Positions 4,021-54,172 of a stretch of DNA of 55,600 nt are shown one piece after another (position 1 is the first letter of the stretch; every line of letters starts with the position of its first letter). The position numbers and the translations under genes are program-made. The stretch comes from Deltaproteobacteria bacterium (lineage in GTDB: Bacteria > BMS3Abin14). The notes below the pieces were generated by a model. That model saw only the letters and a program-made list of their open reading frames with translations, was not told where the DNA came from and did no database searches. The stretch spans positions 1-55,600 of the forward strand of contig JAADHJ010000002.1 in assembly GCA_013151915.1 (NCBI GenBank), written 5' to 3'.

Positions 4021-5016
4021 TCAGCATTGAACCTGTCGAAGCCCCAGGAACTCCACCGCCAGGTCAACAATATCGTCGGGGTCATCCAGGCCGTTTATCT
4101 CCCTCCGAAAATCGGATCCGCCTGGAATCCCTTTGCTGTACCAACCGAGATGCTTTCGCAGATGTACCGTGCTTCTTTGGCCCGGCATCTCTCTTATTAT
4201 AAGGTCAATGTGTGTTGATATGAGCCGTCGCCTGAAGTGGACATCGGCTTCCTCCGGATGCCCTTCAAGACTGGACTTTATTTCCCCGAAGATCCAGGGC
4301 TTCCCAAAAGCCCCCCTGCCTATCATGACGGCGTCGCATCCCGTGGTCTGGAACATGGCAATGGCGTTCTCGCTTGTTCTGACATCGCCGCTTCCGATGA
4401 CGGGGATGGTGATAGCTTCCTTCAAATAGGCGATGTGCTTCCATTGGGCATCGCCGGCATAGCCCTGGACCCTTGTGCGAGGATGCAGGGTAATGGCCGA
4501 CAGCCCCTCGGATTCCAGGATGCGGGCGATGGATATGTAGTTCTCCTCCATGGCCGACCACCCCAGACGTATCTTGGCTGTCACAGGTACATCCACCCTG
4601 GCGACAACCGCCCGGGCGATGGCGCCGGCGCGGTCGGGTTCCCTCATGAGCTGAACCCCGCTTCCGCTCTTCAGGATCTTTTTGACGGGGCAGCCCATGT
4701 TGATGTCTATAATGCCGGCTCCGGCCTCGGCCAGGTATTGAGCCGCCAGGGCCATCTCTTCCGGCTCCCTCCCGAAGATCTGGGCCGCCACAGGATGTTC
4801 GTCCGGGTGGAAAACGCCCATTTCCTTCGTTCTGCGGGACCCGAATCTAAACGCCCTGGCGCTTATCATTTCCGTAAAGACCAGCCCGGCCCCTCCTTCT
4901 CGGCAGACACGCCGAAAAGGCCCGTTGGAAATCCCTGCCATGGGCGCGAGAAACAGGGGCGTTGCCCCAACAGGGCAGGGGAGGGGGGAGCTGTTCAGTT
5001 CAGCTCTTCGGAGCAT
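4021..5016 (-). CDS. dusB: tRNA-dihydrouridine synthase (DusB-type)
   Basis: A 331-residue FMN-dependent enzyme that reduces uridines in the D loop of tRNA. The family signatures are clear: LAPMAGISNGPFR near the N terminus (FMN binding), NMGCPVKKILKSGSG with the catalytic cysteine, and VMIGRGAFGKPWIF near residue 240. The ATG at 5016 follows AGGGGG and overlaps the end of the upstream cytochrome gene by 22 bases, so the two are probably co-transcribed. The last codons (LRQVQC) and the stop are made from a dispersed repeat, so the C-terminal tail is not conserved family sequence. Confidence 0.95.
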   Translation of the reverse strand: MLRRAELNSSPLPCPVGATPLFLAPMAGISNGPFRRVCREGGAGLVFTEMISARAFRFGSRRTKEMGVFHPDEHPVAAQIFGREPEEMALAAQYLAEAGAGIIDINMGCPVKKILKSGSGVQLMREPDRAGAIARAVVARVDVPVTAKIRLGWSAMEENYISIARILESEGLSAITLHPRTRVQGYAGDAQWKHIAYLKEAITIPVIGSGDVRTSENAIAMFQTTGCDAVMIGRGAFGKPWIFGEIKSSLEGHPEEADVHFRRRLISTHIDLIIREMPGQRSTVHLRKHLGWYSKGIPGGSDFRREINGLDDPDDIVDLAVEFLGLRQVQC

Positions 5017-6491
5017 ACCAACCCCCTGTCTCTGATATAGTTGAAGTCGTCATCGCGGGCGCCGGTATGGCAGGTGCGACAGACGCTTGCCTTCGGGATC
5101 TTTACCATGTGGTACAGACCGGGCGAGGAAACATGGAGAGACCCCATGCCGTGGCAGGCCTCACACTGGACGCCGAGGAGGTCCTTTCTCGGCCGGGCCG
5201 GAGCATACCCGGTGGGCCGGAGATACCCGGTAACGTGACAGGGAATGCAGTCCGGATCGGCCTCGGCGTCCTTGGGAGCAAGCGACTGGATGGCGGTTGA
5301 GTGAGGAGTTCCCTTCCAGAAGGCATACCTCCCCCTGTGACAGTCCAAACATGAGTCAGAACCTGTATATCTTATTTCCGTATCGGTTACGTCGCCGCCC
5401 GGATTGGCTTTACCGGCGGTCTCCTTGAGACCCCTTCGATAGTCCCTGATCATGGTGGCAATCTTCGGATCGTCCATGAAGGATGAAGCCAGGGATACCA
5501 TGTCGCCGTCATAGCGGGTCATCTTATCAAGCTTGGTCAACTCTTTTCGAAAGCCGCCGGCCTGTCCGCTCCCGGGGCTGGCTGGTCCCCTGTCTTTTTC
5601 CGAGGATATCCTTTTCCTGAGGAAGTCGATCCTCGGCCCCGAAGCCCACCCTCTGCCGGACCGGTCAGGTCCGGCAAGGTGAAGCAGAAGCTTGCCCACG
5701 GCCCTCCCCTGAAAATATCCCGAGGTGATAAGGGTGCCGCTCTCCTCCCTGGGGTTCTTGATCCACGTCCGGCTTTTTCCGCCTACGATAACGTCAATCC
5801 CCTTGACGGCCTTCGCCAGTTCCCTGTCCTTTGGAAAGCCTATATTGGTAAGGGCGATCACCAGGTCGGATTTCCTCTCCAGTTCGGGGACAATCCTGGA
5901 AGCGATCCTGATGGGATCGTCCACCCAGATGCCTGGTACGCGGCGTTCCATGAGATCAACATTCACCTGCCGGGAGGTCAGCCCGAGCACCCCGATCTTT
6001 GTGCCGCCCACATCGAAAACCGCCCACGGATCGAAGACGGGCTTTCCCGCGGAATTCTTAATGTTTGCGGAAAGAAACCTGATGCTGGTGGATGCCGCAA
6101 GCCGCTTCAGGTTTTTCTCCCCCAGGTAGAGGTCCAGTTCTCCCACGGCGGCTGCCCGGTAATCCATCATCTCCATTGCCCGAAGGATGAGTTCAGCCTT
6201 CTTCAACGCCGGTTCAAGGGCCGCGTTTGAAAGCGGCTTTTCAGCAAAGATGTTGCCGGAATCCAGCACCAGGATGGGGATTCCCTCCCTTTCTTCCTGG
6301 TGGATAAATGTGGCTCGACGGGGCAGTCCCCCCACCTGCGCCGTCTTTCAGCCGCACGGATCAATGATGCCCCCTACGTCCCCGGTGTAGATGATCTTCA
6401 CCGGGCCCACCGCTTTTTCTTCAGAACTGCAGCCCGAGACGAAGAAAACCGGCAAGAGCACCAGGAGAAATATGTAAGCGGTGTGCCGCAT
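4995..6491 (-). CDS. Selenoprotein: metallophosphatase-like tetraheme cytochrome lipoprotein, in-frame UGA
   Basis: Read from the ATG at 6491 the product is 498 residues. A lipoprotein signal peptide ends VFFVSGC (Cys21), so the protein is probably anchored to a membrane facing the periplasm. Codon 48 (6350-6348) is UGA in the context DPCG-UGA-KTAQVGGLPRR; related UshA-like proteins, as I recall them, have Cys-Gly-Cys here. Residues about 31-270 resemble a degenerate calcineurin/5'-nucleotidase domain. The C-terminal part has four heme motifs: CLDCH, CIPCH, CEACH and CRTCH (about 381-475), like cytochrome c554-type proteins. A SECIS-like hairpin follows the UGA. Conventional calling would start at GTG 6335 and lose the signal peptide, without which heme attachment in the periplasm would not make sense. 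Electron-transfer partner and substrate are unknown. Confidence 0.85.
6317..6350 (-). promoter_or_regulatory. SECIS-like stem-loop after the UGA codon
   Basis: Two bases after the UGA (6350-6348) the message can fold as GACGG, C/C mismatch, GCAG, a nine-base loop GUGGGGGGA, CUGC, CCGUC: nine pairs around one mismatch. An alternative fold, GGUGGGG with CCCCGUC, leaves a loop GGACUG starting 18 bases after the UGA, nearer the usual spacing of bacterial SECIS elements. Both put G in the first two loop positions, as SelB-binding loops usually have. Confidence 0.7.
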
Positions 6492-6848
6492 GTTAAGGTT
6501 CCACGTTCCACATGACTTTGATACTCCGGAAAAAGGTTTTCAAACCTGCCTCTATTCCCTCCATCCCTTTCATCCCTGTAAAATACACATATTTTTTTGC
6601 GGCTTCGCCTGAGATTGCCACGCCCGTAGTTTCACTCGGGGCTCGCAATGACATCTTTTCGTCCCCCGCGTCTGATCTTTCATCTCTGGACACTGGACCC
6701 TTCGACAGGCTCAGGGCAGGCTCTGGACTGACCCATCCCGTTGGACCTTAGACGTTGGACGTTCTTTACCCCTCTGGACTCTGGACCCTTCGACAGGCTC
6801 AGGGCAGGCTCTGGACACTGGACTATCCTTACGACCCCTCCAAACATT
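6492..6848. repeat. Intergenic repeats upstream of the selenoprotein gene
   Basis: No gene is visible. Two 36-base copies of a ctggacccttcgacaggc-type repeat lie at 6693-6728 and 6781-6816, 52 bases apart; a third copy is at 54140-54172. A tcgcaatgac-type module spans about 6598-6654. I see no clear promoter for the selenoprotein gene in this DNA. Confidence 0.65.
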
Positions 6849-8054
6849 CTACATGTCCTTGAGGACACGGTAAAGGTCCGGCAGCTGATCCTCCGAGGGA
6901 GGAGGGACGATGGCTATCGACCAGCCCTGTCCCCATGCCAACAGCAGTCCGCTGATGAGATCCTCCACAGGAATCCGCTCGCCGGTCACCCAGTTTTTAG
7001 ACTGGAATTTTAGGACAACTCGTGCCTTTTGTCCAAATCGTTCAGACAGGTCCTTAAGGGAGTTGTCCAGCAACTCGAGCGTCTGGGGTAACGTCAATCC
7101 CAACTCATCCTGTATCTGCCGGTGATAGAGCATGACACCCGCGTAGGAAGTGCCGTGGTCCAGTACGGAGCGCAGATCCTGGGATAGCCATAGCCGGCCG
7201 TTTTCCGGCGAGGTCACCGCCTCGTAGGTCAGATTCATTATCACACGTATTCCTGGATTGAATTTCCGGACCGTGTTCTCCAACTCCCGGGCCAGCGAGG
7301 TGATCCCCTCCGTTTTCCATCGCACCCACCGTTCGAATGACGGGGATGCCTTCATGTAGGTTTTCCCGTCGTCCCCGTGGTCCGAAAAAAGATATGTATA
7401 GGGCGGTACCCGGTCGCCGGTCTGCTGCGTGTAGCGGGCAAGGTTGCCCTCAGTGAAACCCTCTCCCATCCTGGATGCCAGGTCGTCCTGAAGGAGGATT
7501 CCGTCAACACCTGTTGAGGCCAGATCCATGTAGAGATTTTTCAGATAGGTTCTGACACGGGGATCGAAGATGTCCAGGTCCGTGAGGGTACGGAAGGTGT
7601 CGTCATCGGGGGAATAGGCAACGTCCTTCGGTAAATCGGCGTTACCAAAGGCTCCCTTTCTGGTAACCATCCACGCGTAGGCATTCAGCCCTTCCTGATG
7701 ACAAAGACGGACGAAGGTGGTCATCATGTCCTTCACCACGGGTGCGCGTCGGGTAGGAAAATAGACCCCCTCGCTCTTGATGCCGGGCTGTCCAGCGGCG
7801 GCCGCGTGGTAGCGATCCCCCTTCAATTGGAAAGCTCGCAGGATTACGGTGTTAAAGCCCATTTTTCGGACCCGGTTGAGCCAGAGAGAAGTGGATCTAT
7901 TGTCCCTGGGGCTGAGAACCAGGACCTGGACCGCCTTGATGCGTTTGAGCCCCTGGATCTCGGGCGCCTTTATGGTCCGGTGGTCCACGCAGCCCGAGAG
8001 GAGAATCAGGAGAGCAAGGGCGGCCGGGATGTATCTAGTCGAAAGCCGTGTCAA
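6849..8054 (-). CDS. Lipoprotein with GHL13 / PgaB C-terminal-like glycosidase domain
   Basis: A 401-residue predicted lipoprotein (signal ending LLILLSGC). The body resembles the glycosyl-hydrolase-like domain found at the C terminus of PgaB, the poly-N-acetylglucosamine deacetylase: a TIM-barrel pattern with FNTVILRAF, NAYAWMVTRKG, DIFDPRVRTYLKNLYMDL and the acidic GVDGILLQDDL motif. No deacetylase domain is present, so a hydrolase or glycan-binding role is more likely than deacetylation. The start is a TTG at 8054 with GAGGA upstream; it overlaps the end of radA by 20 bases, suggesting coupling. Confidence is moderate for the family and low for the substrate. Confidence 0.65.
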   Translation of the reverse strand: MTRLSTRYIPAALALLILLSGCVDHRTIKAPEIQGLKRIKAVQVLVLSPRDNRSTSLWLNRVRKMGFNTVILRAFQLKGDRYHAAAAGQPGIKSEGVYFPTRRAPVVKDMMTTFVRLCHQEGLNAYAWMVTRKGAFGNADLPKDVAYSPDDDTFRTLTDLDIFDPRVRTYLKNLYMDLASTGVDGILLQDDLASRMGEGFTEGNLARYTQQTGDRVPPYTYLFSDHGDDGKTYMKASPSFERWVRWKTEGITSLARELENTVRKFNPGIRVIMNLTYEAVTSPENGRLWLSQDLRSVLDHGTSYAGVMLYHRQIQDELGLTLPQTLELLDNSLKDLSERFGQKARVVLKFQSKNWVTGERIPVEDLISGLLLAWGQGWSIAIVPPPSEDQLPDLYRVLKDM

Positions 8055-43952: not shown

Positions 43953-44050
43953 TGGCGGAAGTGCATGGGAATCGAACCCACCGTCCCGGGTTTTAACCGG
44001 GACCACTGGATTTGAAGTCCAGGAGGGCCACCAGTGCCCTAGGCACTTCC
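43953..44050 (-). tRNA. selC: Selenocysteine tRNA (anticodon UCA)
   Basis: The reverse complement reads GGAAGTGCCTAGGGCACTGG and so on to GCACTTCCGCCA. It is 98 bases including CCA. Features peculiar to tRNA-Sec: an eight-base acceptor stem (GGAAGTGC/GCACTTCC), an anticodon loop CTTCAAA with anticodon TCA, and a long variable arm GTCCCGG...CCGGGAC. It reads UGA when delivered by SelB at a SECIS element, and so gives the means to read the UGA in the cytochrome gene at 6350. Confidence 0.97.
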
Positions 44051-54139: not shown

Positions 54140-54172
54140 GACCCTTCGACAGGCTCAGGGCAGGCTCTGGAC
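54140..54172. repeat. CCTTCGACAGGCTCAGG repeat, third copy
   Basis: Matches 6693-6728 and 6781-6816 over 33 bases. It is next to the uvrA stop codon. Confidence 0.8.

Follow-up and report, generated by a model that had tools for sequence, protein, structure and literature searches.

UshA-like selenoproteins are already described: a UshA-like protein of COG0737 with a CxU motif is listed in a table of the GOS study (PMC2398784), and the same protein and motif appear in reviews of 2022 and 2026 (PMC9312934 and PMC13188914), the later of which cites the NCBIfam model NF041198 (UshA_like_PCGU, 'UshA-like (seleno)protein'). A related UshA-type domain is represented by NF049981 (UshA-like (seleno)protein family 2), whose published motif is CxxU and not CxU, and the same review covers ExtKL, another multiheme cytochrome selenoprotein (PMC9312934 / PMC13188914). 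Here we analyse a 55,600-nucleotide stretch of DNA from a Deltaproteobacteria bacterium (hereafter referred to as the window), which encodes a protein that is a new member of the already curated bacterial family NF041198 and not the founder of a new family. The first-pass annotation of the window had pointed to UshA-like selenoproteins; such proteins are in the literature, and NCBIfam contains the exact family. It had also considered the fusion to a tetraheme module a notable form, a view that did not hold, because the NF041198 model spans both the phosphatase-like and the cytochrome halves and the fusion is thus the normal architecture of the family.

The complete selenoprotein gene occupies positions 4995 to 6491 on the minus strand. 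A single frame runs from the ATG at 6489–6491 through the UGA at 6348–6350 (codon 48) to the UGA stop at 4995–4997 with no stop between, as the first-pass annotation had read it through to four CXXCH motifs, and its translation has 498 codons with selenocysteine (Sec) at position 48. A plain open reading frame caller instead starts at the GTG at 6335 and yields 446 amino acids, so that the signal peptide and the CGU motif are lost in standard gene calling; the loss of the export signal without the upstream part had been foreseen. The lipoprotein signal peptide (6429 to 6491, minus strand) contains the lipobox VFFVSGC with the presumed lipidated Cys21, and relatives within the family share this start and have comparable lipoboxes. 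Against NF041198 (curated cut-off 275), the product reaches 337 bits and the genome reading 329 bits, the latter in two blocks, profile positions 2–268 and 343–518, the second of which is the cytochrome part. The first block underlies a degenerate 5′-nucleotidase/UshA-type metallophosphatase-fold domain that carries the CGU motif (5667 to 6404, minus strand), with PCGU following the first strand. The second belongs to a C-terminal tetraheme cytochrome c554-type module (5046 to 5369, minus strand; PF13435, 60 bits; similar to PDB 1bvb and 6i5b), in which the heme motifs CLDCH (5337 to 5351), CIPCH (5235 to 5249), CEACH (5151 to 5165) and CRTCH (5067 to 5081), all on the minus strand, are at residues 381, 415, 443 and 471.

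The window protein shares PCGU and the phosphatase-like and cytochrome model parts with NF041198, and shows no essential difference from it; its identity to L001, the closest outside relative in the alignment, is 60%. Fewer of the old metal ligands survive in its clade than in NF041198 members of other phyla. It falls well short of family 2 (NF049981; 58.9 bits, cut-off 140), and ExtKL (NF040886; 5.9 bits, cut-off 250) is a separate family. With the 5′-nucleotidases UshA and CD73 and with SoxB it has the fold of the N-terminal domain in common, whereas it lacks their dimetal ligands and C-terminal nucleotide-binding domain and has instead CGU and the tetraheme module. The C-terminal region resembles cytochrome c554 and multiheme c cytochromes, but in the window protein it forms the tail of a selenoprotein domain. 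We are close to certain of the joint claim that the UGA is decoded as Sec and that the protein belongs to NF041198.

We propose that the window protein probably serves in electron transfer and does not act as the nucleotidase that its name implies, because the catalytic metal site is lost, the CGU pair is present and hemes are fused to it. From its sequence, it is most likely a periplasmic lipoprotein in which a thiol–selenol centre trades electrons with four hemes. SelB and tRNA-Sec would decode the UGA at codon 48 by means of a hairpin at 6317–6336, and the product would be exported as a lipoprotein bearing four c-type hemes, as the lipobox and CXXCH motifs suggest. The N-terminal domain retains the 5′-nucleotidase fold without the dimetal hydrolase site, with the CGU selenol–thiol pair placed in the loop directly after the former first metal-ligand motif. 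Within the former active-site cleft, Cys46 and Sec48 may reduce or oxidize a small substrate, and the CGU centre may exchange electrons with the tetraheme module, which could link it to a periplasmic or outer-membrane electron-transfer chain. Taken as a whole, including the redox mechanism, this explanation of a heme-coupled selenol–thiol NF041198 protein whose N-terminal domain lacks a hydrolase site has our moderate confidence. For the entire UshA-like CGU/CGC family, we give an even chance to the broader proposal that it is no family of nucleotidases: a dead metallophosphatase would have been put to new use, with a selenol–thiol centre in place of the dimetal site and a tetraheme wire in place of the nucleotide-binding domain. 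If true, several phyla would possess an uncharacterized class of heme-coupled selenoenzymes. The comparison also suggests that the label in print (UshA-like, esterase or nucleotidase) steers experiments towards the wrong activity, as hydrolase-site loss, the CGU pair and the fused hemes speak for redox chemistry.

The hemes accompany the selenol domain in most Sec homologues. Four CXXCH motifs are present in 35 of the 47 Sec rows of our alignment (the window included), and one further row is cut by a contig end. The remaining eleven (L035, L075, L102, L107, L111 and L113–L118) carry no CXXCH in the open frame of the CGU domain, which shows that the selenol domain also occurs with no hemes fused to it. 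The AlphaFold model, built without hemes, has a pLDDT below 50 both in the CGU loop (residues 45–54) and in the heme domain, and was set aside as a guide to the geometry between them. In other proteins, pairs of the CXC type are ligands of soft metals, and the CGU/CGC motif might accordingly bind a thiophilic metal or metalloid instead of acting as a redox pair, with the hemes, which alone could supply the electrons, reducing or oxidizing the bound ion. We consider this unlikely: Sec normally serves at sites where redox chemistry matters, and no linkage to metal-resistance genes was noticed in the contexts examined, for which family searches put a name to only a few neighbours.

Less probable still is a working selenium-dependent nucleotidase or phosphoesterase, in which Sec48 and the remaining acidic and histidine residues would bind a hydrolytic metal and the cytochrome would be an accessory. 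The fold itself fits such an enzyme: the N-terminal domain is that of a 5′-nucleotidase by sequence similarity and by Foldseek comparison of the AlphaFold model with CD73, 2z1a and UshA (E about 1e-20), and most relatives retain D1, D2, H2 and H3, with Glu at the Asn position. The metal site of the window protein argues against it. Where PDB 2z1a and 3ivd have the canonical metal-binding and catalytic residues DHDNHHHH, the window protein has DGNELNKR, with only the first Asp unchanged; the GNHE motif has become GELD; and the UshA catalytic set (D-x-H, D, GNH(E/D), H and GH-x-H) is not found. 'Metallophosphatase', the term used in the first-pass annotation, therefore describes the fold but not the catalysis. 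The loss extends across the family, in which none of the Sec or Cys homologues (85 aligned CGU/CGC rows) keeps an intact phosphatase metal set: the Asn and the catalytic His of GNHE are missing in all 85, and the first His of the canonical set in all but three. In many relatives from other phyla, the former site is still surrounded by D, D, E, H and H, and these proteins may therefore bind one metal together with the Sec. Furthermore, neither Metallophos nor 5_nucleotid_C matches the window protein, the latter at E values up to 1, whereas the canonical control homologue (L045) matches both (5_nucleotid_C, 7e-31), and the tetraheme cytochrome c554-like region stands where the nucleotide-binding domain would be. 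In the literature that we searched, not exhaustively, we found no description of hydrolase-site loss in the UshA-like family.

The reading of UGA codon 48 as Sec, on which the electron-transfer proposal builds, is strongly supported by sequence comparison, and the checks suggested in the first-pass annotation (a Sec/Cys column, a SECIS-like hairpin and the sel genes) all favour it. In 91 aligned N-terminal domains, the codon 48 column, two residues after a Cys, holds Sec in 47 rows (an aligned UGA) and Cys in 38, counts that are inflated by near-copies because the homologues were sampled from the best matches; the six rows without CGU or CGC include two solved nucleotidases. The Cys rows bear out the earlier suggestion that Sec replaces the second Cys of a Cys-Gly-Cys pair. 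In a 14-sequence alignment, residues 46 and 48 are invariant as Cys/Sec. Among the relatives are members of the window's own family, of Candidatus Eisenbacteria, of a second further phylum and of a phylum with large genomes, which is probably Myxococcota (inferred name). On the tree, the Sec label changes seven times, at least four of which are forced by well-supported branches, as would be predicted if Sec and Cys replace each other at a functional residue.

The genome (2.27 Mb in 60 contigs, listed as 100% complete) contains selA, selB, selC and selD, the set required for bacterial selenoproteins and including the three genes that the first-pass annotation had named for a genome search. selA and selB are adjacent on contig C44, and selD lies on contig C8 (67245–68165; L055) with one in-frame TGA inside the match, which suggests that SelD is probably itself a selenoprotein. 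The tRNA-Sec gene selC, previously noticed in the window, is found at 43953 to 44050 on the minus strand by both ARAGORN and Rfam RF01852 (74.8 bits).

A bacterial SECIS stem-loop with a 7-bp stem (6317 to 6336, minus strand) presents the 6-nt loop GGACUG at 6324–6329, with G first in the loop and, in a position-specific pair test, seven of seven pairs formed against 4.2 expected. All eight own-family members have a 7-bp stem and a 6-nt loop, GGNCUN, that begins 18 nt after the UGA, and their second stem pair alternates between A-U, G-C and G-U. The probable Myxococcota phylum has a stem of different sequence at this position, and its loop is GGUCUG; the SECIS loop of Escherichia coli fdhF is similar (GGUCUG). 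Sec homologues form 5.04 of the 7 pairs compared with 3.92 under synonymous codon shuffling, whereas Cys homologues show no pairing excess (3.41 compared with 3.47), and the two groups differ with a Mann–Whitney p of about 1e-5, which is optimistic since the rows are related. In a set of 15 long-stem sequences, pairing holds in 96% of cells, both sides change at three of the pairs, compensatory changes at one stem pair run through G-C, U-A, C-G and A-U across phyla, and the covariation score of 0.62 compares with 0.19 in shuffles and no more than 0.20 when partners are slid. Because these 15 rows were picked for having the stem, the pair test is the fairer of the two measures. The stem-loop with its leading G, which had been called strong in the initial reading, is thus upheld by pairing and covariation, but its folding energy is unremarkable in the window sequence (z about −1.2 to −1.4; −0.4 against synonymous shuffles). 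Sec and Cys homologues as groups also do not differ significantly in folding energy (p = 0.11), and we dropped this measure in favour of the pair test, so that the case for the SECIS element rests on fixed position, complete pairing and covariation across relatives. The reading of the UGA as a genuine stop, or as an artefact of sequencing or assembly, with the gene a pseudogene or two reading frames, finds its only support in the splitting of the gene by a standard caller and is rejected as extremely improbable, given that the UGA stands in one column in 47 rows of several phyla with a Cys codon in others, and that the Sec machinery is complete and the SECIS covaries. The gene is a selenoprotein gene shortened by ordinary gene calling, in a lineage with few named relatives.

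In its own family, the gene lies in the order alr, ABC-transporter/MCE-type genes, radA, a GHL13 lipoprotein, the selenoprotein gene, dusB, a sensor kinase and a response regulator, several of these names being read from the sequences. The GHL13 lipoprotein is missing in some members. No neighbour is common to the own-family genomes and the genomes of other phyla examined, and no operon partner was found for the selenoprotein gene. As the neighbourhood is conserved within the family only and consists mainly of housekeeping genes, it was of no use as a hint to the substrate.

Three minor observations concern the surroundings of the gene. The conserved neighbour at 6849–8054 encodes a lipoprotein whose GHL13 domain resembles the C-terminal portion of PgaB and which has no deacetylase portion. 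dusB (TIGR00737, over the cut-off) has a possible start at 5016, in a different frame within the 3′ end of the selenoprotein gene; with that start, the two genes would overlap by about 20 bases (4995–5016). In addition, an exact 17-base repeat, CCTGAGCCTGTCGAAGG, occurs in the window at 6699–6715 and 6787–6803, both just upstream of the selenoprotein gene, and at 54143–54159; a reversed control pattern has no copies, and the repeat itself is present in 16 exact copies in the genome of the window and in up to 24 in family members.
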